A stretch of 64,000 nucleotides of DNA from a gamma proteobacterium symbiont of Taylorina sp. (GCA_025655455.1 JAHXIV010000037.1:62001-126000); one strand, 5' to 3'. Positions 8,567 to 25,043 are shown, counted from the stretch's first letter. Program-made: numbers and translations. The notes: generated from the sequence alone by a model not told the origin.

Positions 8567-8995
8567 CTAAGCCATTTCAGGCATAACCCGATACTCTTCA
8601 ATCAAAGATTCTATATGTGTCCTGATCTCAACCTCAGATCTCGTATCAACCTCCACGACCTGATTATTAAATCGCATTTCATTGAGGGTCTTAATCGCCT
8701 GGATCTGAGTTGAACCGCTTCCATTCGCAGCTACAGAAAGGATTATGCCAACCCAGTGACATTCACTAAAAACGTAACCGGACAACAAATAAACTGGTTG
8801 CTTGATGGATATGATATCAGTACCATGAAACCATATAAAAAACGCAATAATAATTTCTGGTTTGAATTCCTTAAATTTAGAAATCCCATCTTCACCATTA
8901 ATTGCTTCAGCAATTATACTGTGACCTAAGGCTTCAAGCAGATCTCTAAGGATGTTACGGCTAACTTTTGAGTCATCAACAATTAATATATTCAT
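8567..8995 (-). pseudogene. Disrupted CheY-like receiver gene
   Basis: The first 52 residues are a clear receiver-domain start: MNILIVDDSKVSRNILRDLL with the acidic DD pocket, then a second helix and strand ending KPEIII. Just where the phospho-acceptor Asp (normally ..MDI.MP) should follow, the sequence changes to an unrelated hydrophobic run, and no acceptor Asp, Thr/Ser or Lys of the receiver fold is present. The opposite strand of that segment (about 8732-8855) reads as an IS66 TnpB end. The open frame of 142 codons is therefore probably an accidental chimera. The C-terminal 45 residues (TQIQAIKTLNEMRF and onward) are of unknown origin. It lies downstream of the phosphatase island on the same strand. 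Confidence 0.6.
8732..8855 (+). mobile_element. IS66 TnpB (Orf2) C-terminal remnant
   Basis: On the plus strand the codons read RKDYANPVTFTKN, then QQINWLLDGYDISTMKPYK. This matches the well-known end of IS66 accessory protein TnpB (..VTLT...L.WLLDGYD...M..H). No start or other IS66 gene is present. It sits inside a receiver-domain gene on the other strand and explains the loss of that gene's phosphorylation site. Confidence 0.5.
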
Positions 8996-9118
8996 TTTGC
9001 ATTTAGGATTATTTTAGTGATGTTCGTAGTTTATGATAGAACCAATTGATTTCAATGTTATTTTTTCCTATATCAAAAAATCAATAGATTAAGGTATTAA
9101 TTATATTTTCTATTTTTA

Positions 9119-12100
9119 TTATATTTTAAATCCAATCACAGTCACATCATCATTACGTTCCTCCGTTCCTTCATACTTTTGTAATTCATAAAGCAGTAAT
9201 TCCTGTTGATCAGCAAATTGTTCATCCGCATTTTCAAGGATAAATTGAGTAAAGCGTTTCTTACCGTAGGGGAAACCTTTTTTACCTCCATTTTGATCAA
9301 GGTAACCATCAGTGGTCATATAAACTTGTGTGGAAGAACTCACATCAATGGTATGATCGATAAACATATAGTCAGCATCTGATTTTTTATAACCAATAGA
9401 ATGTCTATCACCTTTAATTGTTTTTAATTCATTATTTTGAATCAGAAATAATGGGGTATTCGCTCCAGCAAAGCGAATGATTTTTTCTTTTTTATTATAG
9501 TACAGAATCCCGCCATCAAATCCGGCATTGGAGATGGAATCAATATCTTCCTGCTGCAGAAGGTGTTTAATACTTTTATTAAAAATACTTAACATCTTTG
9601 CCGGACTAATGGTTTTATCCTGGTTAAGATTGGCGGTAAGCTGACGTTCGACGGCTTTAACCAGCATGGTCACAAAGGCACCTGGCACACCATGACCAGT
9701 ACAATCAATAACCATAAGAACCACTTCGTCTTCGCTTAATGCTTCTAACAGATAAATATCTCCACCAACAATATCCTTGGGATGCCAGATGGCAAAATAA
9801 TCCTGAAAATATTTTTGAAAAATTTTATTATCCGGAACCAGTGCTCCCTGAATCAGAGCCGCATATTCAATAGACTCGCGCGTTTGTTTGTTAATTTCTC
9901 TAATTTCCTGCTGTTGTTTGAGCAATAAATCACTGGCTTTTTTACGTTCAGTGATGTCACTAAAAGTCACCACTGAACCAGAGATCTGATTGTCTTTGAA
10001 AACAGGAAATGCTCTGTATTCAACAGGAAAACAGCTGCCATCTTTTCGCCAAAGCACTTCATTATCTATATGACTGATTTTTCCTTCACTAAAAGCATGA
10101 TACATAGGACATTCTTCCACAGGATAAGCTGTACCATCAGCATGGGTATGATGAATAATGGCATGAATTTTTTGTCCCAGAATTTCACTTTCATGATATT
10201 GCAGCATTTGTAGAGCAGCAGGATTGATAAAATTGACCAATCCATCACTACCCACTCCAAAGATACCTTCACCCACAGATGTCAGTAATAAGCGGGTTTT
10301 TTCCTCGGCTTGAATTAACGCGTCCTGATCTTTTTTTCTATCAGAAATATCACGGATAATCCCCGTGAATAAAGACTCTTCTCCAGTAATGGATTCACCA
10401 ACTGCCAAATCCATAGGGAATTGTGTTCCATCTTTGCGTTTACCTATGACTTCTCTGCTTTTTCCAACGATATGTTTTTTATGACTCTTATTATACCGTT
10501 CCAGATAGCCATCATGTTCAGTATAAAATGGTTCAGGCATTAATACTTTTACATTTTTTCCTATCACTTCAGAGGATTGATAGTGAAAGATTTTTTCTGC
10601 TGAGGGACTAAAGAGTTGAATAATTCCCAACTGATTAATAACGATAATACCATCCGAAGCATTGTTAATAATCGAACGTGTTTTAGCCTCTGATCTAATT
10701 TGTTCATCCATTTGCTCCTGTATCAGCTTTCTCATGGAGAAAAATTCACTATTCATTGTCCCCAACTCATCACTATAAAATGTTTTTTCTTCAATAGCTT
10801 CAGAGCCGGATTTAATCTGTAAAATAGTGTCAATCAGATAACTTAAGGGTTGACGGATCTTTTTAACCAACATTAAATAGATAATAAAGTTGCCCAAAAC
10901 AAACAGGATACTGGCTATCATAATTGCCCTAAAGGCATTTGATATATTTTTTTCCAATAAAATTATTTTTGTATTACTTCGATGATTAATGCTGCTAAAC
11001 AAATCATCAAGGGGATGCATAATAATAACTTTGGCCTGATAATAAGCCTGGGAATGTAATAGCTCTATGGCCAAAGGCTGATTCTTTTCCTGCATGGCTT
11101 TAAACGCTTTGACTTCCAGACTCACCAAATCATTTGAATTATCTTCAGATTGTTTTAATAACTCAAGTTCCTGTTTTGAATAAGGGAGGTTTGCTATCAG
11201 TGCTTTCAACATAATTTTCTCACCATCGGGATGATGATGTTTTCTTAATTCAGGACTCAGATCCCAATAAATCGCATCATAGTTTTTCGGTCTGGCTTTG
11301 ATACCGTTTCTGATATCTAAAATATCTAAATAATTTTGTTTATACTGCAAATTACTGGTGACCGCATAACTTCTGGCATAATGGCTCAAATCATCCGAGC
11401 TTTGTCTGAGTTTATCCACCGTTTTAAGCATTTCAAATTTATCCAGATATACAGTGGCCAGTGAATTTTCAAGTCTATCCAGAACCATTAATTCATAGAT
11501 AATAAAGAGGATCATGATAAACTCAAAACCGACAATCAATAGAATAAAATGGTTAAATCTGATGTTTAAAAATTTGGATCGACTATAATTCTGGTAAATA
11601 AAATAAGCCAGCAGTAAAACAACAAAAGCTGCAAAGAGCATCTCTTCTAATTGTAATAATTCTGCAAAGGAAAGCTCGCTGATTTCCTTATTTAAGCTAC
11701 CATAATCCAGCGGTGTTGGGATACTGGATACTTTTGTCCACTTTTTATAAATCTCATAAAGGTCTTCTTCATTGAAGGTAGCAATAGTTTTATCAATGAT
11801 TGACAGTACTTCAGCAGGCCAGTCGTTACGTACAGCAACATGCAAGTTTAGCTGATAATCTGTTTTATAGGCGATTTGCATTTGCTTATACGCATGTTGC
11901 TGTAAAAAATATTTTGCAGTCACCTTATTGACTAAAAAAACATCAATCTCCTTTGACAGGAGCTTTTCAAATCCCTCCTCAGTGCCATTTAATAAAATCA
12001 ACGGAATTTCCGGCAGATTTTTTTCCATGATCCCATGAATAGTATAGTTGCCAACCACTGCTAATTTGTGAGGTGACGTATTTGTCTTGTTAAAGTGTTC

Positions 12101-14866
12101 AAAGCCCTGCGTATAATTTTCACCCTCTCTGCTGACCAACACATAGGGTGTTGAAAAGAGTGTTTTATCAGAGAAATTCATATAAGCTTTGCGCTCCTCT
12201 GTCACGCCCACCGCACTATACATATCAACACTGCGATCTTTAACTTTTTGAGTCGCTTCGGCCCAGGATTTTGTTGGAATATGATGTAAATTCAAACCAC
12301 TTTTTGCCTTTAATAAACGGACAACATCTGAAATAAAGCCGGCATGCTGTCCAACTTCATTAGTCCATTCAAAAGGTGCCCAGTCAGGGTTGTAGACATA
12401 TCGAATCGGCCTTTTTTTATCTATCCAGTCTTGTTCCTTGTCATTAAGATTCAGCGTATTATCTTGGGATATCCATTGATTAACGATTTCTTTTTTCTCT
12501 TGTCTGGAAATGGCATCCAGACCTTTTTGCAGGATGGATTGTAAAATAGGCTGATCGAAACGACTGAGAAAGTGTAATTTATTACCTTTAAGAGAAAACT
12601 GCGGGATCCCTTTCAGATTATAGATGCCATGTTCCTGAAAGAAATATTCAGAAGTAATTCGGGACTCTAATAAGGCATCAGACTGACCATTTAATACCAG
12701 TTGTACAGATTGCATAAAATCATCAGTTTCTATCACTTTAATGTCAGGATAATGTTTTTTTATGGCTGGTATGGTGGCAAAACCTCTAACAATGGCAATA
12801 GACTTATGGGATAAATCTTCAAAGGATTGAATGGATTTATTATTCTCTTTTATATAGATATTCTCTCGAAGAGTGAAGTAAGGCTGACTAAATAATCCAT
12901 ATTGCTGTCTTTCTTCTGTATAATAAGCATCAGGTAATAAATCGATTTTTTTCTCTTTAAAACCGTTTATTAATTCATTCCATGACTGATTAACCAGTTC
13001 TACTTTAAGACCTGTTTTTTCAATCACCAGATTTAAAATATCGCCTGAAAGACCATTAGCCTGCGCATTTTCATAATAGGAGATAGGTGCCCAGGGTTCA
13101 ATGCCCACTGTGACAGTATTAGAATTTATCCAGGATTTTTCTTCATCAGTTAAAGTGGCTTTAATATTGGAAGATTTAAACTCATCAATCCATGATAAAG
13201 TGATTTGATGCCTTTCTTTTTGCGTTATGCTGTCCAGGCCTTTTTGTAAAATTGAATTTAACAGTGGTTCATCAATTCTTGAAAATAAATGCAGACCTGG
13301 TGCTTTAAAGCTGACTTGTGCTATGCCTTTCAAACCGGAAATCAATTCTTCATTAATTTTCTTTTCAACAGCAATTTGTCCTTCATATAAAGCTTCAACA
13401 GAACCATTTAACACTTGATTGATCGAATCATCTAGATCTTTTGTATAAACTAATTGTATGGAGGGAAACTTTTCTTTGATTTTATCTATGGTTCCATACC
13501 CCTCGACAATAGCTAATTTTTTGTCCTCTAAATCACTCATAGAGTAAATACTATTATTATCTTCTTTTACATAGATATAATCTTTCATCTTAAAATAGTC
13601 TGTGGAGTAAAGTCCGTAGCTTGCTCTTTCATCGGTATAATAGGTGGCAGGAAGAATATCTATTCTTTTGTCTTTAAAGTCATTTAATAAGGTATTCCAG
13701 CGATCATTAATTATTTTTGTTTTTAAACCAGTCACCTTGATAATTTGTTTAAGAATATCGCCCGCAATGCCATCAATATCTAAACTATTATTTGAAAAAA
13801 CAACAGGATCCCATTGTTCCACACCTACACTGACCGTATGGAATTTTATCCAGGCAAGTTCCTGCACCGTCAGCGCTATTTGTTTAGAGTGTTTATTGTC
13901 AAACAGAAAACTGTCTATCACAGGCTTTTTATCAATCACACCGGTTACCATCATAGCTTCAGCGATGCGGTTTATGCGTTGTGGATCAACTGAGCCTAAA
14001 GGATAGGTTTCCGTCAAAATCAGCTTTGCAGTCTGATCCGCTTCATAGAGCAAGGCTTCACGACTCTTTTCCTGTGTGTTGTACTTGTTTAGTATCAGTT
14101 CAACAATTTCATCAGGATGCTGCAAGGCATATTCCCAGCCTTTAAGAGAAGCCTGGCGGAACTTGTCAACTACATCGGGTTTCTGCTCAGCTAATTCAGC
14201 AGAAGTAATGAGTGAATCACCATAGAAATCAACGCCAAATCTGACTGGGTCCATAATATTGAAGGGAATATCCCACTCTTGCAGTACATAGGGCTGATTG
14301 GTAATATAAGCACTCATAACATCCGCATGGCCATTTGCGATTGCCATAGGATCGAAGTTGTGTTCAATAAATTCCAACTTATCTGTATCGATCCCCGTTT
14401 TTCTGAAGAAAGAAAGCAACTCTACCGCTTTGCGCTCCTGACTGGTTAACATCAGGCGCTTTCCGTGCAGATCGTCAGGGGTGCGAATCTTGGCATCGCG
14501 GTGACTCAATAAAACCAGAGCGGAGTGCTTGAAGATATTAGCCAGCAGCTTAATTTGTTTTCCCTGCAGATAATTCAGGGTTGCAGAGGAGGAAACCGTT
14601 GCAAAATCTGCCCGTCCTGATAGCACTTCTTCATTAACATCCATACCAAACTGATATTCCTGGATACCAACACTCAGGCCAGCCTCACGATAAAAGCCCT
14701 TTTCCTGCGCTGCATAGTATCCGGCAAATTCGAACTGATGTTTCCAGAAGAGTTGTAGTGTTACCTTCTGCTCGTTAGTACCAGCAAAGGATTCAAGACT
14801 GCTGAACAGGCTGATAAATACCAGTATTGACAAGCTAATAATCAGATTGTTTTTCAAAGTAAGCAT
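9119..14866 (-). CDS. Giant sensor phosphatase: NMT1, three SBP_bac_3, PAS-PAS, SpoIIE
   Basis: 1915 residues. Signal peptide about 1-28; NMT1/THI5-like binding domain 33-310 (LQLFWKHQFEFAGYYAA); three SBP_bac_3 domains at about 340-560, 585-800 and 818-1060, each opened by an LT..E..W element. Hydrophobic segments lie near 1082-1102 and 1112-1135. A helical region about 1140-1310 is followed by a further membrane segment near 1319-1340 and a HAMP-like linker. PAS domains are at 1392-1505 and 1522-1635, and a SpoIIE/PP2C phosphatase at about 1690-1915 with metal-site motifs VGGD, DCTGHG, TTDGYLDQ and RNDDVT. Four periplasmic ligand domains on one phosphatase chain is unusual. By analogy with SiaA, it would dephosphorylate SiaC in response to ligands. 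Its PAS2-SpoIIE part is nearly identical to that of the 21118-24324 gene. About 120 bp separate it from the siaA-like gene upstream. Confidence 0.85.
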   Translation of the reverse strand: MLTLKNNLIISLSILVFISLFSSLESFAGTNEQKVTLQLFWKHQFEFAGYYAAQEKGFYREAGLSVGIQEYQFGMDVNEEVLSGRADFATVSSSATLNYLQGKQIKLLANIFKHSALVLLSHRDAKIRTPDDLHGKRLMLTSQERKAVELLSFFRKTGIDTDKLEFIEHNFDPMAIANGHADVMSAYITNQPYVLQEWDIPFNIMDPVRFGVDFYGDSLITSAELAEQKPDVVDKFRQASLKGWEYALQHPDEIVELILNKYNTQEKSREALLYEADQTAKLILTETYPLGSVDPQRINRIAEAMMVTGVIDKKPVIDSFLFDNKHSKQIALTVQELAWIKFHTVSVGVEQWDPVVFSNNSLDIDGIAGDILKQIIKVTGLKTKIINDRWNTLLNDFKDKRIDILPATYYTDERASYGLYSTDYFKMKDYIYVKEDNNSIYSMSDLEDKKLAIVEGYGTIDKIKEKFPSIQLVYTKDLDDSINQVLNGSVEALYEGQIAVEKKINEELISGLKGIAQVSFKAPGLHLFSRIDEPLLNSILQKGLDSITQKERHQITLSWIDEFKSSNIKATLTDEEKSWINSNTVTVGIEPWAPISYYENAQANGLSGDILNLVIEKTGLKVELVNQSWNELINGFKEKKIDLLPDAYYTEERQQYGLFSQPYFTLRENIYIKENNKSIQSFEDLSHKSIAIVRGFATIPAIKKHYPDIKVIETDDFMQSVQLVLNGQSDALLESRITSEYFFQEHGIYNLKGIPQFSLKGNKLHFLSRFDQPILQSILQKGLDAISRQEKKEIVNQWISQDNTLNLNDKEQDWIDKKRPIRYVYNPDWAPFEWTNEVGQHAGFISDVVRLLKAKSGLNLHHIPTKSWAEATQKVKDRSVDMYSAVGVTEERKAYMNFSDKTLFSTPYVLVSREGENYTQGFEHFNKTNTSPHKLAVVGNYTIHGIMEKNLPEIPLILLNGTEEGFEKLLSKEIDVFLVNKVTAKYFLQQHAYKQMQIAYKTDYQLNLHVAVRNDWPAEVLSIIDKTIATFNEEDLYEIYKKWTKVSSIPTPLDYGSLNKEISELSFAELLQLEEMLFAAFVVLLLAYFIYQNYSRSKFLNIRFNHFILLIVGFEFIMILFIIYELMVLDRLENSLATVYLDKFEMLKTVDKLRQSSDDLSHYARSYAVTSNLQYKQNYLDILDIRNGIKARPKNYDAIYWDLSPELRKHHHPDGEKIMLKALIANLPYSKQELELLKQSEDNSNDLVSLEVKAFKAMQEKNQPLAIELLHSQAYYQAKVIIMHPLDDLFSSINHRSNTKIILLEKNISNAFRAIMIASILFVLGNFIIYLMLVKKIRQPLSYLIDTILQIKSGSEAIEEKTFYSDELGTMNSEFFSMRKLIQEQMDEQIRSEAKTRSIINNASDGIIVINQLGIIQLFSPSAEKIFHYQSSEVIGKNVKVLMPEPFYTEHDGYLERYNKSHKKHIVGKSREVIGKRKDGTQFPMDLAVGESITGEESLFTGIIRDISDRKKDQDALIQAEEKTRLLLTSVGEGIFGVGSDGLVNFINPAALQMLQYHESEILGQKIHAIIHHTHADGTAYPVEECPMYHAFSEGKISHIDNEVLWRKDGSCFPVEYRAFPVFKDNQISGSVVTFSDITERKKASDLLLKQQQEIREINKQTRESIEYAALIQGALVPDNKIFQKYFQDYFAIWHPKDIVGGDIYLLEALSEDEVVLMVIDCTGHGVPGAFVTMLVKAVERQLTANLNQDKTISPAKMLSIFNKSIKHLLQQEDIDSISNAGFDGGILYYNKKEKIIRFAGANTPLFLIQNNELKTIKGDRHSIGYKKSDADYMFIDHTIDVSSSTQVYMTTDGYLDQNGGKKGFPYGKKRFTQFILENADEQFADQQELLLYELQKYEGTEERNDDVTVIGFKI

Positions 14867-14989
14867 TTTTATCCTTATACTAAAAGCAACTCTAGATCCT
14901 AATATGTAACTCCATAAATATCCATATTAAGTATAATAGTATTTATTTTATCTCTTCAAAAAATGGGCTGAAATATGTAAATGGGTTAG

Positions 14990-16000
14990 TTATATTTTTA
15001 TACCAACAACTGTGACATCATCATTTCGCTCATAGTCCTGTTGATATTTTTGTAACTCATAAAGCAGTATCTCCTGTTGATCAGCAAATGATTCATCAGC
15101 GTTTTCCAGTATCAATTTTGTAAAACGTTTTTTACCCAATGGAAAGCCTTTTTCACCACCATTTTGATCCAGAAAACCATCGGTTGTTAGATAAATTTGT
15201 GTGGGCAGGCTAACATCAATAGTATGATCGGTAAATTCATAGCTGGCATCAGATTTTTTATAACCAATAGATTGTCGATCGCCTTTAATTGTTTTTAGTT
15301 CATCATTCTGGATAATAAATACAGGGATCTCAGCACCTGCGAAACGCACTATTTTTTGTTTTTTATTATAGTAAAGTATTCCGCCATCAAAACCTGCATT
15401 AGAAATAGAATCTACATTTTCTTGTTGTAACAGATGTTTGATATTCGAGTTGAAAATTTGCAGCATTTTGGCAGGGCTTATCTCTTTTTCCTGATGTGAA
15501 ATAGCGGCAATTTGACGTTCAACCGCTTTAACCAGCATGGTCACAAAAGCGCCGGGAACGCCATGTCCGGTACAATCAATGACCATAATAATCAATTCGT
15601 CTGGACTTAACTCCTCTATCAGGTAAATATCACCTCCAACAATATCTTTTGGATGCCATATGGCAAAAAAATCTTTAAAATAGTGTCTAAAAATATGAGA
15701 ATCCGGTATCAGAGCACTTTGAATCAGGGCTGCATATTCAATAGAGTCACGGGTATGTTTATTAACTTCCTGAATTTCAAATTGCTGCTTAATGAGTAAA
15801 TCATGTGCATCTTTCAGGCGTTCTTCATTGCGGTCGCTCATGCGCACAAGCCTGCGAGAAGTCTTAAACAATTTCTTATAAGCGCTGGTCAGTTTTTCGA
15901 ACTCATCCTTGAAATCACATTGAGGGTTTTCCTCTTTTAGCAGAGCCTCTGCATGATCAAGTGCTACTTGCTCATTCTTGAAAGCGTCAAATTTACCCAT
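14990..16000 (-). CDS. Soluble SiaA-like SpoIIE/PP2C phosphatase
   Basis: 336 residues without signal peptide or membrane segment. The N-terminal 100 residues are charged and helical, likely coiled coil (LTSAYKKLFKTSRRLVRMSD). The phosphatase domain (about 110-336) keeps all PP2C metal motifs: VGGD, DCTGHG, TTDGFLDQ, RNDDVT. In Pseudomonas SiaA the same domain sits behind membrane and HAMP segments and dephosphorylates SiaC. Here the protein follows siaC by 37 bp in the order hemerythrin-siaB-siaC-phosphatase, so it is the best candidate for the cognate phosphatase of the core module. Its catalytic domain closely resembles those of the 9119-14866 and 21118-24324 genes. Confidence 0.85.
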   Translation of the reverse strand: MGKFDAFKNEQVALDHAEALLKEENPQCDFKDEFEKLTSAYKKLFKTSRRLVRMSDRNEERLKDAHDLLIKQQFEIQEVNKHTRDSIEYAALIQSALIPDSHIFRHYFKDFFAIWHPKDIVGGDIYLIEELSPDELIIMVIDCTGHGVPGAFVTMLVKAVERQIAAISHQEKEISPAKMLQIFNSNIKHLLQQENVDSISNAGFDGGILYYNKKQKIVRFAGAEIPVFIIQNDELKTIKGDRQSIGYKKSDASYEFTDHTIDVSLPTQIYLTTDGFLDQNGGEKGFPLGKKRFTKLILENADESFADQQEILLYELQKYQQDYERNDDVTVVGIKI

Positions 16001-16037
16001 ACGCTATATCCTATTACAGAGTGTGTTGTGTGATTAA

Positions 16038-16424
16038 TCAGACATCCTGAGCAACCAGCTTGAAGCTAGCATATTCAAGATCTTCTCCATACTCTTCACC
16101 AAGTTCTTGCATATTATCGTCACTGGTTTCATAGATCCAGTTGACGGTGACTTGATTACCCTGCTCAGCAACCGTATCCAGGAGTTCAAAGAGCATCATC
16201 AAAACCTTTGCTGTAGAGCTATTGAAGTAGATCAATTCAAAATTAAAGGTGACATCCGTACCTTCCAGGTTTTTGAAGTAATCCTCCAACTGCTCAACCA
16301 ATGGACCGAAAAAAATGTTAATATCCTCCGGGTAGGACTCTCCCCGAAACGAGTAATTATTGTCGTCGAAAGCAAAATCGACCTCCGGGGTTCGCTCAGT
16401 AGCTTCTATACGAATGTTATCCAT
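16038..16424 (-). CDS. siaC: SiaC-family phospho-switch protein (DUF1987)
   Basis: 128 residues, the usual size for SiaC. The opening (IEATERTPEVDF..NYSFRGESYPEDINIFFGPL) and the central strand FELIYFNSSTAKVL are typical of the family. The Ser/Thr cluster 69-71 matches the place of the Thr phosphorylated by SiaB in Pseudomonas aeruginosa. There, unphosphorylated SiaC binds and activates the diguanylate cyclase SiaD; whether the partner here is a cyclase is unknown. It lies 16 bp after siaB and 37 bp before the soluble phosphatase gene, so kinase, switch and phosphatase are made together. Confidence 0.88.
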   Translation of the reverse strand: MDNIRIEATERTPEVDFAFDDNNYSFRGESYPEDINIFFGPLVEQLEDYFKNLEGTDVTFNFELIYFNSSTAKVLMMLFELLDTVAEQGNQVTVNWIYETSDDNMQELGEEYGEDLEYASFKLVAQDV

Positions 16425-16440
16425 TATCGGACTCCAAATA

Positions 16441-17010
16441 TCAGGCGTAAGCCGTTAAGGTAAAAAACGATTGGTCGTTATTGACGGGGATAAAATCAAA
16501 ATCGAATCCGTTCTTAGATATGCGCGCAATATCGATAAAACCGACGCCGGCACCCTTGCTGCCCTCTGGAGTTTTTCCTTTAAGGATCTCTTTATGTAGT
16601 GCTTTCAGACTCTTTGCATCCAACTGTTGAATGTGGGTCAAACTATTATTCAGGCGTTCAACATCGTGTTGCTTGATCATATTGCCAATGGCAACAAAAA
16701 AAACATCTTCTTTCCCATCCACCACTTTGCGGCCTACGGTAAGAACACCGTAACGAAGCTCAAGAACACTATCATCTGAAACTTTAACTTCCATTTCATC
16801 AGAGTAACGGATCACGTTTTGCATTTGCTCCACAAAAATCGAAAAAACCCCCCGTATAACAAACTTATCTGTTTTCTCAATGGTTAATTTGTCCTTAATG
16901 GTTTTACCAAGACTGCTCAGTACACTCTCTGTCATGTAACCGCTATAGCAAATGAGTATGCCATCTTCCTGAAGATCATCTCGTAATCTCAACATTTTTT
17001 CGGCTTTCAT
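16441..17010 (-). CDS. siaB: SiaB-family protein kinase
   Basis: 189 residues. The protein has a degenerate GHKL/HATPase fold: an N-box-like segment FVEQMQNVIRYS (Glu61, Asn65) and a glycine-rich GSKGAGVGFIDIAR (about 153-166), as in SiaB, the Ser/Thr kinase of the SiaABCD system. It should phosphorylate SiaC. The next gene is siaC, 16 bp downstream, and a hemerythrin gene lies 14 bp upstream. It differs from RsbW-type anti-sigma kinases, which pair with STAS-domain partners rather than DUF1987 proteins. Confidence 0.85.
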   Translation of the reverse strand: MKAEKMLRLRDDLQEDGILICYSGYMTESVLSSLGKTIKDKLTIEKTDKFVIRGVFSIFVEQMQNVIRYSDEMEVKVSDDSVLELRYGVLTVGRKVVDGKEDVFFVAIGNMIKQHDVERLNNSLTHIQQLDAKSLKALHKEILKGKTPEGSKGAGVGFIDIARISKNGFDFDFIPVNNDQSFFTLTAYA

Positions 17011-17024
17011 AACTTACCCTGGGT

Positions 17025-17429
17025 CTAATCACCATTTTCAGCGAGGAAATGGCCGGTTTTCATATCAGTTTCAAGAATATGCTTAATTAACCAATCCTTA
17101 AGGAAAGGCATCAGATCATTTGCTACGTCCAGGTTGCCTTGCTGAAATGTTTTGCTCTTAGCTAGTGCTATGTTGGTTAACTCATCATGCTCTTGTTTAT
17201 GCTCATAGAAGGCCGGATATCCATAGGTTTGCATTAAGCGTTCCTCGTGCCTGAAATGCCAAACGGTGTAACTAAGAAGTTCTTCAAGGATTTCCCCGAT
17301 TTCCTCGAACTCGCGATTAGCTATGATGGCATCATCAAGTTTGTTGATAATACCCACCAGATTTTTGTGATCATCATCCATCTCTTTATAGCCAACGCTC
17401 AGTGAATCGCTCCAATCTATAAAAGCCAT
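17025..17429 (-). CDS. Bacteriohemerythrin
   Basis: 134 residues, one hemerythrin domain with the complete di-iron ligand set: His21, His58 and Glu62 (HFRHE), His77 and His81 (HKQEH), His117 and Asp122 (HILETD). Such proteins bind O2 reversibly and can also sense NO or redox state. It is the first gene of the hemerythrin-siaB-siaC-phosphatase series, 14 bp before siaB, so an oxygen or redox input to the switch is plausible. An array of 8-bp repeats lies 53 bp upstream of the start codon. Confidence 0.93.
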   Translation of the reverse strand: MAFIDWSDSLSVGYKEMDDDHKNLVGIINKLDDAIIANREFEEIGEILEELLSYTVWHFRHEERLMQTYGYPAFYEHKQEHDELTNIALAKSKTFQQGNLDVANDLMPFLKDWLIKHILETDMKTGHFLAENGD

Positions 17430-17481
17430 GATCGCCCCCTTCTGATATTATTAATCAAGCAGTGATAATTAAAGTATATAT

Positions 17482-17529
17482 CAATTTTTCAATTTTTCAA
17501 TTTTTCAATTTTTCAATTTTTCAATTTAT
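17482..17529. repeat. Octamer tandem repeat (CAATTTTT) upstream of hemerythrin-siaBC operon
   Basis: Five perfect copies of CAATTTTT followed by an imperfect sixth (CAATTTAT). It lies in the 136-bp space between the stop of the 1142-codon sensor gene and the start of the hemerythrin gene, where an operon promoter is expected. Copy number changes would alter promoter spacing; the tract is also strongly bendable AT DNA. Confidence 0.9.
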
Positions 17530-17565
17530 ATATCATGATGAATTTAATAATGAATAAATATTCTC

Positions 17566-20500
17566 TCAATCACCAATCTTAAAGCCTATCATGCAAACAT
17601 CATCACGGCGTCTTTCGTCAGCTTGGTATTCCATCAAGGCTTTAAGCACTTGCTCGCGCTGTTCTGCTAATGGTAAGTCCTGCACCTGACAGAGTAGCTC
17701 CTTGAAGCGGCGCTTGCCAAAACTGCGCCGTTTTTCACCGCCGATCTGGTCAATCAAACCATCAGAGGTCATATAGAAGTGTCCTGAATCTTCGAGTTCA
17801 AGCTCATGAACAGTAAAGGTAATATCTCGCGCAATACCCCGGTAACCAATTCCTTTCTTGTCCCCTTTAATTTCAGTAGCAATACCGTCAACAACATGAA
17901 AAAGGGAAAAACGTGCACCTGAAAAAATCATCTTTTTCTTGTTAGGATGAATATAACAGACGCCTAGCTCAAGGCCGTCATCAGATTCCCCCTCCTGTAA
18001 ATGCTGATTCAGTTCCTGTTGAATCAGTTGATGACTACGCTGAAGCAAGGCTTTGGTATCACCCGGCATGGTTTCCATGGTTACCATGTCAAGGGCTCCG
18101 TTTGCGATCAGGGTCATAAAGGCGCCGGGTACGCCATGTCCAGTACAGTCACCCAGAGCCAGGAGCTTCCCTAAGCCCCAGGGTTTGCACCAATACATAT
18201 CACCACCTACCTGGTCACGAGGCTCCCAAATAATAAAATATTGTGAGGTGATTGTCTCAAGGCAGTTTTTGGGGGGAAGGATCGAGTGTTGGATGTGCGT
18301 TGCATAGTTAATGGAACCGGAAATCACTTCCAGGGCTTCATCACGTTCCTTCTGTGTCGCAAGCCGTTTGGAAATGTCATTGAAGGAAATAACGGCACCT
18401 ACCAGTTTCTCATCCTTGATGATGGGTGTGCTGTTATATTCGACTGGGAAAAAAGTACCATCCTTGCGCCAAAGAACCTCATCATCGATACGGTAGGATT
18501 TGCCCTCGGTAAAGGATTTGTACATCCAGCATTGCTGGACGGGATACTCAGAACCATTCGCACGAGAATAATGAAAAAGTGCATGGGCCTTATTACCCAG
18601 GAGCTCTTCTTCTGTGTAGCCGAGCTGGGCTGAACACAGTGGGTTGGCAAAGACAATAACCCCATTTGTATCAACCCCGAATACACCTTCTCCCACTGAA
18701 GTCAGTAATAAGCGTGTTTTTTCTTCTGATGCAATAATAGTTTTGGTTTTTTCAAGTACTTGTTTTTCTAAATTATCCGAGAGAGTTTCAAATGCTTTTT
18801 TATCCGTTATATCCTGCCTGATAGCACTATAAGCTGTTATTTTTCCATTACTATTGGTTTCAGGAGTAATAACAGCATTAACCCAATAAAAACCGCCATT
18901 CTTTTTGCGATTTTTAATTTCACCAGACCATATTTTATTACTGCTAATAGTATCCCATAAGTCTTTAAAAAGTTCCTTAGGCATATCGGGATGGTTCACA
19001 ATAGCATGTGTATTTCCAACCAGTTCTTCAGCTGTATATCCACTGATTTCACAAAAAGCTGCACTGGCATAAGTAATCACGCCATTTGTATCCGTTTTAC
19101 TGGCAATCACATTGATATCAAAAACGGATAATAATTTTTCCAGAACCTCTTTTTGAGTTTCAATAGCCTGGGTTTTTACCTCAACCATTAAATTTAATTT
19201 TCTATTCCAGAAAACAAATAAAAATATCAATAAAATTAAAGCAATCGCCACTTGATATAAAAGCGAATAATCTATTTTAGTCGTGACTCTAGTTGTAGTC
19301 CACTTGTCATAAATTTCAGACATTTCCATGTCACTGATAGCGGCTATGGATTTATTGATGATAGAAAGTGCTTCACCAGGCCAATCATTTCGTACAGCAA
19401 TATTTAAATCCAGTTTATATTTTGTTTTATAAGCCAGGCCAAGTGACTTATATTCTTCTCTTTCAGTAAAATATTTAGCGGTGACTGTGTTGACCAAAAA
19501 AACATCAATTTCATTGGATAATAATTTTTTAAAACCTTCTTCTGTACCCTCTAATAAAACCAGTGGCAATTTAGGACGCTCTTCTTTAATAATACCGTGA
19601 ATGGTGTAACCACCAACCACCGCTATTTTTTTATCTTTTAAGGCCTTAAAACCATCTAAATAATTTTCTTTTTGCCTGCTGACAAACACATAGGCTGTTG
19701 AAAAAATATTTTTATCAGAGAAATTCATATAGTGCTTTCTTTCCTCTGTTATTCCAACGCCGCTATACATATCAGCACTACGATTTTTTGCCTGCTTAAT
19801 TGCTTCTGCCCATGTCTTTGATTGAATAGGAATAAGATTGATGCCACTTTTAATTTTAATCAGTTTTAAAATATCGGCAATAATCCCCGCATGTTTATCG
19901 ACATCATTAGTCCATTCAAAGGGAGCCCAGTCAGGATCATAGACATAACGAACTGGAATATTCTTATTCAGCCATTGTTGTTCTTTATTGCTTAAAGTTA
20001 ATTGTTCAGTTTGTGTTTGATAAATGAGCCCGTCTAAATTCTGATTACCCTTTGCCAACCCCAATAATCGATAAAGCTGTATATTTTCACCGACATTTTT
20101 TGGATTAATATTTCCGAGAGGAACATTTTTTTGATCGACTAATGCCACAATGGTTTTTCCCTCAAAACGTAAAGCCTCTTTGCTTCTATTTTGAGTATTG
20201 TATTGATTAATAATAACATCGACTGTTTCATCTAAATGCTGCAGAGCATATTCCCATCCCTGCAATGATGCCTGACGAAATTTTCTGACAATTTCCGGAT
20301 GCTTTTCAAGCATAGTCTGGGAAGTAAATAAAATATCGCTATACAAATCAAAACCAAAATCTCTGGGATTAAATATGGTATAGTCAATATTTGCCTGCCT
20401 TAATGTATACGGTTCATTCGACATATAGGCAATTATCGCATCTGTTTTATCATGGATTAAATCATTCACGTCAAAGGAATGCTGCTGACGTATAAACATG

Positions 20501-20952
20501 TCTGATCGAACACCGGCAGAAATCATCATGGAATGAATGGAAGCCAGTCCGGTTTCATCGTCAGTCAGCATGATACGTTTACCTTCCAGATCACTGAGCT
20601 GTTTGATATCATCACGCTTTTTTGCGAGTAAAATCTCAGGAGCATGTTGAAAAATTGCTGCCAGCATAACAACAGGTTTACCTTCTAAGCGATCTAATAA
20701 TAAAGAAGAACGTCCCACCGCAAAGTCAGCTTGGCCAGAAATAACATCATCAACATTATTCATGCCAGACTGATATTCTTTAATATCAACCTCTAAACCA
20801 AGGTCATTATAAAATCCCTTTTCTTTTGCCATATAATAACCGGCAAACTGAAATTGATTTTTCCAGACTAGCTGTAAGTTTATTTTTTCACTGGCAAAAC
20901 TTTGCTGTGTAAAAATAAAATGACATAAAAAAATAACAAATAACTTAAACAT
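17566..20952 (-). CDS. Sensor phosphatase: NMT1, SBP_bac_3, PAS-PAS, SpoIIE
   Basis: About 1128 residues. The ATG at 20952 (MFKLFVIFLCHFIF) is chosen because it opens a proper signal peptide and has GGA 7 bases upstream; an in-frame ATG at 20994 is less likely. Counting from 20994: NMT1-like domain 35-330 (LQLVWKNQFQFAGYYMA), SBP_bac_3 domain 345-575 (VRYVYDPDWAPFEWTND), one membrane segment near 581-605, PAS domains at 621-731 and 751-875, and SpoIIE/PP2C at about 915-1142 (VGGD, DCTGHG, MTSDGLIDQ, RRDDVC). The phosphatase domain is clearly more divergent than the other three in the island (Tyr-Trp-Cys-Lys after VGGDM), so it may have another target. It sits just upstream of the hemerythrin operon. 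Confidence 0.85.
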   Translation of the reverse strand: MFKLFVIFLCHFIFTQQSFASEKINLQLVWKNQFQFAGYYMAKEKGFYNDLGLEVDIKEYQSGMNNVDDVISGQADFAVGRSSLLLDRLEGKPVVMLAAIFQHAPEILLAKKRDDIKQLSDLEGKRIMLTDDETGLASIHSMMISAGVRSDMFIRQQHSFDVNDLIHDKTDAIIAYMSNEPYTLRQANIDYTIFNPRDFGFDLYSDILFTSQTMLEKHPEIVRKFRQASLQGWEYALQHLDETVDVIINQYNTQNRSKEALRFEGKTIVALVDQKNVPLGNINPKNVGENIQLYRLLGLAKGNQNLDGLIYQTQTEQLTLSNKEQQWLNKNIPVRYVYDPDWAPFEWTNDVDKHAGIIADILKLIKIKSGINLIPIQSKTWAEAIKQAKNRSADMYSGVGITEERKHYMNFSDKNIFSTAYVFVSRQKENYLDGFKALKDKKIAVVGGYTIHGIIKEERPKLPLVLLEGTEEGFKKLLSNEIDVFLVNTVTAKYFTEREEYKSLGLAYKTKYKLDLNIAVRNDWPGEALSIINKSIAAISDMEMSEIYDKWTTTRVTTKIDYSLLYQVAIALILLIFLFVFWNRKLNLMVEVKTQAIETQKEVLEKLLSVFDINVIASKTDTNGVITYASAAFCEISGYTAEELVGNTHAIVNHPDMPKELFKDLWDTISSNKIWSGEIKNRKKNGGFYWVNAVITPETNSNGKITAYSAIRQDITDKKAFETLSDNLEKQVLEKTKTIIASEEKTRLLLTSVGEGVFGVDTNGVIVFANPLCSAQLGYTEEELLGNKAHALFHYSRANGSEYPVQQCWMYKSFTEGKSYRIDDEVLWRKDGTFFPVEYNSTPIIKDEKLVGAVISFNDISKRLATQKERDEALEVISGSINYATHIQHSILPPKNCLETITSQYFIIWEPRDQVGGDMYWCKPWGLGKLLALGDCTGHGVPGAFMTLIANGALDMVTMETMPGDTKALLQRSHQLIQQELNQHLQEGESDDGLELGVCYIHPNKKKMIFSGARFSLFHVVDGIATEIKGDKKGIGYRGIARDITFTVHELELEDSGHFYMTSDGLIDQIGGEKRRSFGKRRFKELLCQVQDLPLAEQREQVLKALMEYQADERRRDDVCMIGFKIGD

Positions 20953-21117
20953 TATTAGTCCATTTGTAATTAACCTAGATAACGCAGTAGCCATCTACTA
21001 CAACGCCCAAAAGCACTGTACCTAAAGGATTTTCTAAATATTTTAGCTTCACCCGTAGAGTGACTACGAATAAAGGTAAAATCTAAAACCATTAAATTCC
21101 TCACATTCGATACTCAA

Positions 21118-24100
21118 TCAAATTTTTAGGCCAACAACAGTGACATCATCATTTCGTTCCTCACCTTTTTCATACTTTTGTAATTCATACAGCAGAAATT
21201 CCTGTTGATCAGCAAAGGATTCACCTGCATTTTCAAGGATTAATTTAGTAAAGCGTTTCTTGCCAAAAGGAAAGCCTTTATCGCCTCCATTTTGATCCAG
21301 GTAACCATCGGTGGTTATATAAATTTGTGTGGGAGAACTCACATCAATGGTGTGATCAGTAAACTCATAGTTAGCATCTGATTTTTTATAACCAATAGAA
21401 TGTCTATCACCTTTAATTGTTTTTAATTCATTATGTTGAATCAGAAATAATGGGGTATTCGCTCCGGCAAAGCGAATAACTTTTTCTTTTTCATTATAAT
21501 ACAGGATGCCCCCATCAAATCCGGCATTGGAGATAGAATCAACATCTTCCTGTTGCAGAAGGTGTTTAATGCTTTTATTAAAAATACTCAGAATGTTTGC
21601 CGGACTAATCATTTTGTCCTTGTGAAGATTAGCAGTGAGTTGACGCTCAACCGCTTTAACCAGCATAGTCACAAAGGCTCCGGGCACTCCATGACCAGTA
21701 CAATCAATAACCATAATAATCACTTCATTTTTGCTTAATTCTTCTACCAGATAAATATCTCCGCCAACGATATCTTTAGGATGCCATATGGCGAAAAAAT
21801 CCTGGAAATATTTTTGAAAAATATTGTTATCTGGAATTAATGCCCCCTGAATCAGAGCTGCATATTCTATTGAGTCACGAGTATGTTTATGAATTTCCTG
21901 AATCTCCAGCTGCTGTTTAAGCAATAAATTATGTGCATTTTTACGTTCAGTAATATCACTAAAGGTAACCACTGAGCCGGAAATTATATTTTCTCTAATA
22001 ACCGGGCGTGCCTTATATTCGACAGGAAAACTACTGCCATCTTTTCGCCATAATATTTCATCATCAATCTGGCTGACTTTTCCCTCACTATATGCATGGA
22101 ACATAGGGCATTGTTCAACTGGATAATTAGAGCCATCAATACGAGTATGATGGATAATAGCATGGATTTTTTGTCCCAGAATTTCATTTTCATTATATTG
22201 CAGCATTTCCAGGGCAGCAGGATTAATAAAATTTACCAGACCATCACTACCTACACCAAAGATACCCTCTCCAACAGAGGTGAGTAATAAACGTGTTTTT
22301 TCCTCTGACAGCACTTGTAAATCCAATGCAGTTTCAGCTACTTGTTTTTGTTTATTCAATGCTTCTGTGCGTTGTTCGACTTTCTCTTCCAGGGAATCAA
22401 GTAAATCCCTTAATTCAACAGTTCTAAGGTTTACCAGTTTCTTCAATTTTTGATTGTTATAAATAACAAAAAGTAACACAATAATAATCACACCAACTAT
22501 TTGAAAAATCAGAGTCCAGTTGGTTTGTTTGATTACTTTTACACTAGCCCATTTATCATGAACCACATCAAAAGTTGATTTTGGTATGCTTTTTAAACTT
22601 TTATTTAAAATTTCTAATAAATTTTTATCATCTTTTCTTACCGCTATACTAAGATTATATTTCATCTTTGTATAACCTGCGACTTGAAGGTTTTTTAGTC
22701 CATATTTACTTTTATAATATGAAAATACAGGTATGGTGGCAATTGTAAAATAGACTTTTTTATCTATGACATCCTGTAAAGCCCCATGATGCCCATCTGA
22801 TTCATAAATCTTAATATAGGGATATTTCTTTTTCAGCTTGCTTATTAGTCCTGAACCTTTTTTCCTTGACATGGTTTTACTGGTAATCGATTCGAGGCTG
22901 CTCACCAGAGGTTTATCAGCGGTAGTTATAATTACTAAATCATATTTTAAATAAGGAAGTGTGAAGTTAGCAAACTCCTCTCTCTTTGTTGTTTTAATCG
23001 CGCTAGGTAAAATATCACATTTTTTTTCTTGTAAAAATTGTTGTGACTCTGTCCAGGAGGATGTTTTTATAAAATGGTATTTTATTCCTAACTTTTCTTG
23101 TATAATTTTTAGAATATCAATAGAGATGCCTTTTTCAACGCCATTTTCTCTGAACTCTATGGGATCCCAGTTTGGATTAATACAAATATTGATTATTTTT
23201 TTCTTCTTTAAATAGTTGAGCTGATGTAATGAAAGTTCATTAATATTATCTGACTTTTTAACTCCCCAGTTTTTATCGCGCAAAATTGAGAACTCTTTTT
23301 TAGGAATAATCTTAAACGCTTTATTAAGAATAGAAGATAGTTCAGGATATTTATGATGGACGCCAATGGCTGACTCATTAAAGCGAGTATATATCTCCTT
23401 AACAATTTTTAAATTATAAGTTTCCAGTTTATCTTTATTAATAAAATCAGCAATTAAGGCACTGGCCTCATTTGAAGAGGAAAGGCTTCTATACATATCA
23501 TCAATAGAGGCTTTATCTATGATTTTTGCTTTGGGTGATTTAGATCCCATTATGTTATGAGTAATAGAACCTTTTTTTAAATAGGCTGTTTTGTCTGCTA
23601 AATCATCCAGAGATTTAATAGTAGAATTATCTCTTCGTGTGACTAAATAGGAAGGTGTAAAGTTATAGGCAGGAGTATAATAAAAATATCTTGTTTCCCT
23701 TTCTTTACTCCAACCTAGTCCCATAATGCCATGCAACTCATCACCCTTGGTTGCTCTGGAAAACCCCTCAGCCCATGCAGAGTACTTAACAGGAACAAGA
23801 TTGGCTCCGCTGTATTTATTAATCAGTTTTAAAACTTCAGTATGTAAGCTAATCCCATTGTCATCATGAGGCCAATAGTCCATCATACCTATTTTTGCGA
23901 AACTGTTTTTCTCAAGCCACTGTTTTTCCTCTTTAGTCAGTTGGATTTTAAGTTCATTTTTAAAATAAAGAACTATTTTACCAATGCGCTCATTGTTGAA
24001 TGTTATGTCTGATGAAATATTGTCCAGTCGTTTCAATTCTTCCGGAATAGGCTGATTAAATACTGATTGACTTCCATCTTTATAAAAGGTGATAAAAATC

Positions 24101-24324
24101 TCATTGTCTATATTTTCAATTATTTTTAAGGCTCTGATGTGTTTGTGGATTTTTAAGGAAGGTTTCAGCACAACTAAAAGTTGTTCTTCATCTACTTCAT
24201 AAAGATATTTGGCACTTAAATTAGCAAAAAAATTTAAATCATTTTTAATCTCTTGATTAATACTATTTGCATTTACTGCTGTTATGCTTATTAGAAAAAA
24301 TAAAGCGATTAATATTCGTTTCAA
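21118..24324 (-). CDS. Sensor phosphatase: two SBP_bac_3, PAS, SpoIIE
   Basis: 1068 residues. Signal peptide 1-19, a small unassigned periplasmic region 20-125, SBP_bac_3 domains at about 131-355 and 375-600 (NICINPNWDPIEFRENG), a membrane segment near 605-625, coiled coil, PAS 671-788, and SpoIIE/PP2C 840-1068 with full metal motifs (VGGD, DCTGHG, TTDGYLDQ, RNDDVT). There is no NMT1 domain. The PAS-SpoIIE half is almost the same as in the 9119-14866 gene at both protein and DNA level. Its start codon overlaps the stop of the upstream binding-protein gene by 4 bp (ATGA), so the two are translationally coupled. Confidence 0.85.
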   Translation of the reverse strand: MKRILIALFFLISITAVNANSINQEIKNDLNFFANLSAKYLYEVDEEQLLVVLKPSLKIHKHIRALKIIENIDNEIFITFYKDGSQSVFNQPIPEELKRLDNISSDITFNNERIGKIVLYFKNELKIQLTKEEKQWLEKNSFAKIGMMDYWPHDDNGISLHTEVLKLINKYSGANLVPVKYSAWAEGFSRATKGDELHGIMGLGWSKERETRYFYYTPAYNFTPSYLVTRRDNSTIKSLDDLADKTAYLKKGSITHNIMGSKSPKAKIIDKASIDDMYRSLSSSNEASALIADFINKDKLETYNLKIVKEIYTRFNESAIGVHHKYPELSSILNKAFKIIPKKEFSILRDKNWGVKKSDNINELSLHQLNYLKKKKIINICINPNWDPIEFRENGVEKGISIDILKIIQEKLGIKYHFIKTSSWTESQQFLQEKKCDILPSAIKTTKREEFANFTLPYLKYDLVIITTADKPLVSSLESITSKTMSRKKGSGLISKLKKKYPYIKIYESDGHHGALQDVIDKKVYFTIATIPVFSYYKSKYGLKNLQVAGYTKMKYNLSIAVRKDDKNLLEILNKSLKSIPKSTFDVVHDKWASVKVIKQTNWTLIFQIVGVIIIVLLFVIYNNQKLKKLVNLRTVELRDLLDSLEEKVEQRTEALNKQKQVAETALDLQVLSEEKTRLLLTSVGEGIFGVGSDGLVNFINPAALEMLQYNENEILGQKIHAIIHHTRIDGSNYPVEQCPMFHAYSEGKVSQIDDEILWRKDGSSFPVEYKARPVIRENIISGSVVTFSDITERKNAHNLLLKQQLEIQEIHKHTRDSIEYAALIQGALIPDNNIFQKYFQDFFAIWHPKDIVGGDIYLVEELSKNEVIIMVIDCTGHGVPGAFVTMLVKAVERQLTANLHKDKMISPANILSIFNKSIKHLLQQEDVDSISNAGFDGGILYYNEKEKVIRFAGANTPLFLIQHNELKTIKGDRHSIGYKKSDANYEFTDHTIDVSSPTQIYITTDGYLDQNGGDKGFPFGKKRFTKLILENAGESFADQQEFLLYELQKYEKGEERNDDVTVVGLKI

Positions 24325-25043
24325 TTTATATACTCATTTAAATTTATTATAATTTCACTATCTACACGTTTTGAACAGATAAGATATCGATTATTTCCCT
24401 GTGGCATATTTGATATAACTATAAATTTTAACCTGTCCTTATATTTATGCACTGCCAAAAGTTCAATGGCTTCTTCATAAGAGATAAACATAAAGTCAGC
24501 TCTTTTTTTAGCAATCATAGAGAGCATATTCTTATTTGTGGCTTTTGTTTTTTTTACATTGCTATTGCTTAGTTTTGTATCTAAAAAATTACCATATGAA
24601 TAAGAATCTTTAACAAGAATTGAAATTCTGTTTTTTTTCAATAAATTATCAATTGAAATGCCCTCTGTTATCTCTGTTTTCTTAAGTGCAATTATCCCCA
24701 TTGATTTATCTTGATATAAGGGGTTAGAATATTTTGCAAATTGTTCTCGCTCAGGGTTTTTAAACCAGCCGACAGCACACAGCGCTTTTTTATTAGCTTT
24801 TATTTCTAATAAATGTCTTTTTGAGGGTTTGTTTTTTAATTGATAATTGATTTTTGAATTATCAAGAGCCTCAATTAACGGACTTGCAACTAATCCTGTT
24901 ATTGAATTTTGAGCTTCTATGACATATGGTTCTCTTGGTTCATAAACTATTTCTAGAATATCCTCTGACGCAAAACTGTTAAGACTAAATAGACTAAAGG
25001 TGATGGTTTTTATTAATAGGTTACTTGTGGGTTTCAATATCAA
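24321..25043 (-). CDS. Stand-alone periplasmic SBP_bac_3-like protein
   Basis: 240 residues with a signal peptide (about 1-25, ending LNSFAS) and one binding-protein fold: LEIVYEPREPYVIEAQNSITG at the start, then CAVGWFKNPERE..FAKYSNPLYQDK in the hinge region. No transporter genes are near. The 4-bp overlap with the downstream sensor phosphatase suggests it delivers or competes for a ligand of that sensor rather than feeding uptake. The ligand is unknown. Confidence 0.75.
   Translation of the reverse strand: MILKPTSNLLIKTITFSLFSLNSFASEDILEIVYEPREPYVIEAQNSITGLVASPLIEALDNSKINYQLKNKPSKRHLLEIKANKKALCAVGWFKNPEREQFAKYSNPLYQDKSMGIIALKKTEITEGISIDNLLKKNRISILVKDSYSYGNFLDTKLSNSNVKKTKATNKNMLSMIAKKRADFMFISYEEAIELLAVHKYKDRLKFIVISNMPQGNNRYLICSKRVDSEIIINLNEYIN

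Follow-up and report, generated by a model that had tools for sequence, protein, structure and literature searches.

In Pseudomonas aeruginosa, SiaC binds a motif in the helical stalk of SiaD comprising R74, K77, V78, R80, I81, S82, D83, R84, and Q86, with I71 of SiaC among the contact residues in the crystal; phosphorylation of SiaC at T68 prevents stalk binding, and the stalk takes unphosphorylated SiaC, which activates the enzyme (PMC8457831). In the phosphatase SiaA, the loop residues G611-F612 are needed for function (PMC7647112). A second precedent comes from RsbT-RsbU, in which a partner-ordered coiled coil ahead of the catalytic domain activates a PP2C phosphatase (PMC12143880). So far, the role known for SiaC is to activate one diguanylate cyclase. 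Of the open-access PMC papers searched, one mentions DUF1987 and none mentions DUF6272 or a "SiaC family".

The window analyzed here, a stretch of 64,000 nucleotides, holds a SiaC beside a phosphatase that carries the SiaC-docking stalk, an arrangement in which the phosphatase of one protein switch is probably under the control of another. An earlier note on this DNA had described four SpoIIE/PP2C proteins together with SiaB, SiaC, and a hemerythrin on one strand between 9119 and 25043, and had recognized a SiaA/SiaB/SiaC-type switch. Our ORF calls and Pfam/NCBIfam searches agree with that layout, and the matches to PF09345, NF038262, and SiaA-type SpoIIE domains bear out the family assignment. 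We place the island at 8567-25043, with every gene on the minus strand; the coordinates are collected in Table 1.

Table 1. Features of the island in order of transcription, with domain composition or supporting match.
Feature	Coordinates	Strand	Basis or domains
Small periplasmic binding-protein-like (SBP-like) gene	24321..25043	(-)	upstream of 21118-24324; TIGR02285 54 bits, below cut-off 143; SBP_bac_3 E 9e-5
Type-B SiaA	21118..24324	(-)	periplasmic SBP_bac_3 sensor, TM, PAS, SpoIIE phosphatase
Type-W SiaA, native to window SiaC	17566..20952	(-)	NMT1 + SBP_bac_3 + 2 PAS + SpoIIE
Bacteriohemerythrin	17025..17429	(-)	NF033749 141 bits, cut-off 84
SiaB-family protein kinase	16441..17010	(-)	NF038262 169.5 bits, cut-off 85
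SiaC (type W) switch phosphoprotein	16038..16424	(-)	PF09345 135.2 bits, cut-off 24.5
SiaC-docking stalk module (SiaD-type) of 336-aa phosphatase	15773..16000	(-)	profile A2 E 4.6e-25; own sequence in profile
SiaC-binding motif RMSDRNE	15824..15844	(-)	S55, D56, E59 = SiaD S82, D83, Q86
Type-B SiaA-like PP2C catalytic domain, fused after docking motif	14990..15814	(-)	DNA homology + structure model
Type-B SiaA	9119..14866	(-)	NMT1 + 3 SBP_bac_3 + 2 PAS + SpoIIE
Broken CheY-like receiver gene	8567..8995	(-)	PF00072 covers only positions 1-47 of 111

All of these genes are intact except the receiver gene, and the catalytic and docking residues are retained. The open reading frame of the native SiaA runs from 17566 to 20994; we prefer the start at 20952, which gives a signal peptide and equals the start of the paralogue on contig 15. 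The bacteriohemerythrin is placed between siaA and siaB and is a possible oxygen or NO input. The receiver gene is interrupted before its phospho-Asp and then continues into unrelated sequence. We rejected two further ideas about the layout: the intergenic gaps of 123-137 bp are not duplication-derived repeats, as they do not align with one another, and the gene at 24321-25043 did not prove to be the counterpart of the SBP gene that accompanies SiaA in a congener's type-B operon.

Each of the four SpoIIE domains scores 210-239 bits against the SiaA model NF038263, aligning with its C-terminal half; none of the four phosphatases reaches the model's whole-protein cut-off of 700 bits, and all four keep the metal-binding Asp motifs of SiaA (VGGD, DCTGHG, DG..D, and DD). 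By sequence, these are SiaA-type phosphatase domains on other sensors, not SiaA equivalogs. Compared with the SiaA structure 6k4e, 14990-16000 gives an E-value of 1.8e-49 with all acidic motifs aligned; the other three domains were judged by sequence. Its structure model (pLDDT 93.7) has a short N-terminal helix followed by one continuous helix (residues 31-97), which passes through the motif and on into the PP2C part, and this PP2C part matches 6k4e with Z 32.7 and 1.9 A over 245 residues, a comparison that covers mainly residues 92-336. The switch protein itself aligns to the SiaC of 6kko and 7e6g such that Y66, N68, and S69 match Y65, N67, and T68, and a Ser/Thr phosphosite is present, with S69 at the position of P. 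aeruginosa T68. At 83.7 bits it does not reach the 150-bit cut-off of NF038265, the equivalog model for P. aeruginosa-type SiaC; judged by its family matches, it is a member of the SiaC family, not the named equivalog.

The 336-residue SpoIIE protein at 14990-16000, which the earlier note had grouped with the other three phosphatases, is cytoplasmic and has no sensor domain. It starts 37 bp after siaC, directly downstream, in the slot where SiaD normally sits; here the GGDEF catalytic domain is missing and SpoIIE stands in its place. Its N-terminus (residues 1-76, with a stalk of ~70 residues) aligns with the N-termini of siaC-following proteins in many bacteria, whose consensus core is Y.KL.K.t.RL.R.SDR.[QE]..L, and the SiaD motif R..K..RISDR.Q is present as RMSDRNE. 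We built a stalk profile, A2, from twenty such N-termini, excluding P. aeruginosa SiaD. Searched against the PDB, its sole significant match was SiaD 7e6g (E 7.5e-5), aligned on RISDRYQ, the residues of SiaD that contact SiaC in the crystal (PMC8457831). We therefore do not count the protein as a sensory input; it is a stalk-bearing protein in the SiaD slot, and stalk, motif, and slot can all be read directly from the DNA.

Within this genome, the profile matches only two proteins strongly, namely the window phosphatase (4.6e-25) and the one encoded after siaC on contig 7 (4.4e-22); both are members of the profile, and the informative part is the absence of others. There is a weak match to a histidine kinase on contig 16 (0.005). 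The genome's 79 GGDEF matches were all searched for a SiaD, and the stalk profile was negative in each. Because no GGDEF protein of the genome has the stalk, we reject c-di-GMP synthesis as the output of the window SiaC, which had been expected to activate a GGDEF cyclase. The HD-type outputs of type-B operons carry a related SDKRQ motif with different spacing that the profile misses, a putative docking site recognized by eye only.

We aligned 91 adjacent stalk-SiaC pairs. On the stalk side, the D83 position is Asp in 91/91 pairs, the S82 position is Ser in 76, and the Q86 position is Gln or Glu in 87; on the SiaC side, every pair has Y65 and N67 together with Ser or Thr at the phosphosite. 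At the I71 position, SiaC has Ser in 0/42 pairs with E86 stalks vs 24/45 with Q86 stalks (Fisher 2.4e-9, a test that ignores relatedness, which is uncorrected here). The window pair is Glu59 in the stalk and Ala72 in SiaC, and the SiaC proteins of contig 7 and contig 48 both have Ser at that position, so that the window stalk appears to fit its own SiaC and not the genome's other two. Co-variation thus supports a putative docking specificity of the stalk for the window SiaC.

The stalk travels with SiaC. Among 369 genomes of the class, it occurs in 8 and SiaC in 9, with both in 7 (Fisher 1.6e-12); across the phylum it is found in 57/398 genomes. When we searched for stalk proteins independently of SiaC, siaC lay within 700 bp in 57 of 87 cases and directly upstream on the same strand in 55. 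In Pfam searches of 128 stalk proteins, where the counts overlap because some proteins carry more than one domain, we found HD_5 in 34, GGDEF in 32, HATPase_c in 28, class III nucleotide cyclase in 22, and SpoIIE in 9. These data indicate a portable stalk module, present in at least five classes of output enzyme, and this range suggests a general-purpose adaptor role for SiaC. Sequences of Pseudomonas-type SiaC and SiaD also occur in genomes of the same class, which we take on that ground to be Gammaproteobacteria.

The nine SpoIIE fusions consist of the window protein, one Achromatium protein (L089), in which stalk and SiaA-type phosphatase lie directly downstream of siaB-siaC, and seven RsbU-type proteins; the combination with a SiaA-type phosphatase, at 2/128, is therefore rare but not unique. 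The seven stalk + RsbU-type proteins (L220, L232, L237, L243, L246, L248, and L258) have no siaC within about 1.4 kb; they probably link SiaC to an anti-anti-sigma-type pathway, and their number makes SiaC-docking phosphatases a recurrent form. Class III nucleotide cyclases serve as the stalk protein in SiaC operons at L078:9391-10431, L079:9387-10421, L091, L126, and L088, which suggests SiaC-controlled synthesis of cAMP or cGMP. In type-A operons, siaC is followed by a stalk protein of 717-719 residues with HATPase_c and a CheX-like domain (L022:6748-8907, L069, L070, L087, L103, L105, L106, and L107), found in Gammaproteobacteria, Campylobacterota, and a Desulfocapsa record.

The catalytic half of the window protein has a different history from its stalk. 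In the phosphatase tree, the domains of 9119-14866, 14990-16000, and 21118-24324 cluster with two domains from contig 22 and one from contig 15; this cluster of six is found in this genome only (support 100/97) and lies inside clade B (100/99), which includes the phosphatases of SiaB-SiaC-HD operons. The domain of 17566-20952 groups instead with L079 and L082 (support 99/95, 100/95) in clade W, and both of these loci have window-type (W) SiaC. The substrate-docking loop, which corresponds to SiaA G611-F612, divides the same way: it reads KGFPxG in the three type-B island domains and RRSFG in 17566-20952, and in window-type loci elsewhere it is RRSFG, RRMFG, or RLAFG. Over its full length, 21118-24324 is 58% identical to the SiaA that a congener encodes in an SBP-SiaA-SiaB-SiaC-HD operon (L071); at the DNA level, 9119-14866 is 75-82% identical to a contig-22 phosphatase.

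At the DNA level, 14990-16000 is homologous to 21118-24324 from codon 63 onward, at 78.7% over 825 bp. The junction at this codon immediately follows the docking motif, codons 53-59, and we therefore read 14990-16000 as a fusion of a type-W docking stalk with a catalytic domain of type B. Sensors have been shuffled as well: the contig-15 protein, whose phosphatase is type-B, has an NMT1 part with 85% DNA identity to that of 17566-20952.

Phosphatases and SiaC proteins co-diverge. Over 42 loci that each pair a single phosphatase with a single SiaC, the distance matrices of the two proteins are correlated with a Mantel r of 0.65, and 0/2000 permutations were as high. There are exceptions, namely L086, L109, L117, and L122, where clade-B phosphatases accompany SiaC of another clade near type A; phosphatase lineage therefore does not fix the substrate.

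The genome (4.5 Mb, 104 contigs) encodes three SiaC proteins, which fall in three lineages of the SiaC tree: W (window), A (contig 7), and B (contig 48). Intact SiaB is encoded in the window and on contigs 7 and 16, with one more, broken, on contig 48. The earlier statement that there is one SiaB/SiaC pair is thus true inside the island only, because the genome has three siaC and three intact siaB. We found 13 SpoIIE matches genome-wide, about ten of them SiaA-type, so that the ratio of SiaA-type phosphatases to SiaC is about 10:3 here; it is 7:3 in G018 and about 18:2 in G771. Congeners without SiaC that we checked had no phosphatase in the SiaA score range, which serves as a proxy for SiaA type in that survey. 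In G771 (L092), several of the roughly 18 SiaA-type phosphatases, which occur alongside only two SiaC, are near 1,800-1,900 residues long, and three stand in tandem ahead of siaB-siaC. A FIST-domain protein adjoins SiaA-type phosphatases in two unrelated loci (L024:3383-4573 and L078:3489-4709).

A type-B sia operon of this genome (G000) has been duplicated and reciprocally degraded across contigs 48 and 16. Contig 48 (L023:8586-10797) keeps the type-B phosphatase and siaC with siaB broken, and contig 16 (L076:1-1637) keeps siaB and the HD output, with the phosphatase internally deleted and no siaC. In this draft assembly the two contigs end in 91 identical bases. Being split over two degraded loci, the type-B switch may be failing.

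Given these observations, we tentatively favor, at somewhat less than even confidence, a composite partner switch in which the window SiaC docks on and activates 14990-16000, whose substrate would most likely be the type-B SiaC. The core switch, made up of SiaA 17566-20952, SiaB 16441-17010, and SiaC 16038-16424, appears complete: SiaB would phosphorylate the window SiaC on S69 and, upon binding of a periplasmic ligand, the membrane SiaA would remove the phosphate. Dephosphorylated SiaC would dock on the coiled-coil stalk of 14990-16000, as SiaC does on SiaD, order the long helix, and pair two phosphatase domains, switching both on. The activated enzyme would then dephosphorylate a SiaC. The likeliest target is the type-B protein of contig 48; its outputs would be an HD-type phosphodiesterase together with a histidine kinase (contig 16), which would place two SiaC switches in series. 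The proteins at 9119-14866 and 21118-24324 would be sensors of the type-B switch rather than of the local SiaC. We infer both the activation by docking and the substrate; for the latter, the type-B domain and loop of 14990-16000 favor the type-B SiaC of contig 48, and the shared W operon favors the local SiaC. A broader proposal, that two SiaC switches stand in series and that the stalk is a general plug for SiaC-driven phosphatases, cyclases, phosphodiesterases, and histidine kinases, we consider possible but less likely than not.

Should the local SiaC be the substrate, free SiaC would dock on and activate 14990-16000 and more SiaC of the same type would be dephosphorylated, a positive feedback that is self-reinforcing and possibly bistable. 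Operon structure is in keeping with this, as siaC and 14990-16000 are separated by only the short gap noted above, and so is the co-variation that fits the stalk to the window SiaC; moreover, Achromatium has a second case of stalk and SiaA-type phosphatase directly after siaB-siaC. We nevertheless think feedback unlikely, since the catalytic domain and loop are type-B, a lineage that accompanies type-W SiaC in no sampled genome. Less likely still is the model proposed in the earlier note, in which all four phosphatases, several with periplasmic sensors, converge on the island's SiaC. The one-strand cluster of four SiaA-type domains with intact catalytic motifs invites this view, and many-to-few ratios do recur in other lineages, but 14990-16000 has a SiaD stalk in place of a sensor and three of the four domains are of a lineage whose SiaC companions elsewhere are of other types, with a type-B SiaC still present in the genome and phosphatase and SiaC lineages co-diverging. 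The refuting condition set in the earlier note, a neighborhood not conserved in relatives, also turns out against the model: of 57 relatives, 6 have SiaC and none has the island, and no SiaC locus from congeners or family members shows the cluster. What stands of the many-sensors idea is the genome-wide excess of phosphatases; convergence is likelier on the type-B SiaC than on the island's own.

It is also conceivable, though improbable, that the stalk merely recruits SiaC to the catalytic domain, making 14990-16000 a soluble SiaA, or that docking of SiaC inhibits the phosphatase. The sequence is compatible with docking that does not activate, and the Achromatium protein could be a soluble SiaA, because no other phosphatase is seen in its partial operon. 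Against recruitment, the SiaD stalk binds and is activated by unphosphorylated SiaC (PMC8457831), the wrong form for a substrate; PP2C relatives are activated by ordering of a coiled coil (PMC12143880). A chance cluster of decaying paralogues with no joint function would accommodate the broken receiver gene that adjoins the island and the duplicated, partly broken type-B operon elsewhere; we regard it as very improbable, given that only the receiver gene is broken, that the catalytic and docking residues survive, and that E59 and A72 make a matching pair.

Our survey indicates that SiaC is a general switch protein, in the manner of the anti-anti-sigma proteins for transcription. A SiaA-type phosphatase on which SiaC docks would, if true, give bacteria a direct means to chain or self-reinforce such switches, and the short stalk motif would predict which enzyme is controlled by a given SiaC.

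One of the closest described systems is SiaABCD of P. aeruginosa (PMC7647112, PMC8457831), which has in common with the window a SiaA-type phosphatase, a SiaB kinase, the position of the SiaC phosphosite, and, downstream, a protein whose stalk bears the SiaC-binding motif. In P. aeruginosa that stalk protein is the diguanylate cyclase SiaD, whereas in the window it is a PP2C phosphatase; the window also differs in the NMT1/SBP sensors of its SiaA, in its extra phosphatases of a second lineage, and in having Ser instead of Thr as the phosphosite. In a congener's type-B operon (L071), the phosphatase lies beside its own siaB-siaC and an HD output, whereas 21118-24324 lies beside siaBC of a foreign type. 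The seven stalk + RsbU-type proteins share with the window protein the fusion of stalk and SpoIIE; they differ in their RsbU-type catalytic domain, and their substrate is probably another protein. With RsbT-RsbU of Bacillus subtilis (PMC12143880), the likeness is one of mechanism: there a partner set free under phosphorylation control orders the coiled coil of the linker and turns on the PP2C dimer, as we infer for the window. Unlike the kinase-like RsbT, however, the window partner is SiaC, a STAS-like protein, and its docking segment is the SiaD stalk, not the N-terminal domain of RsbU.
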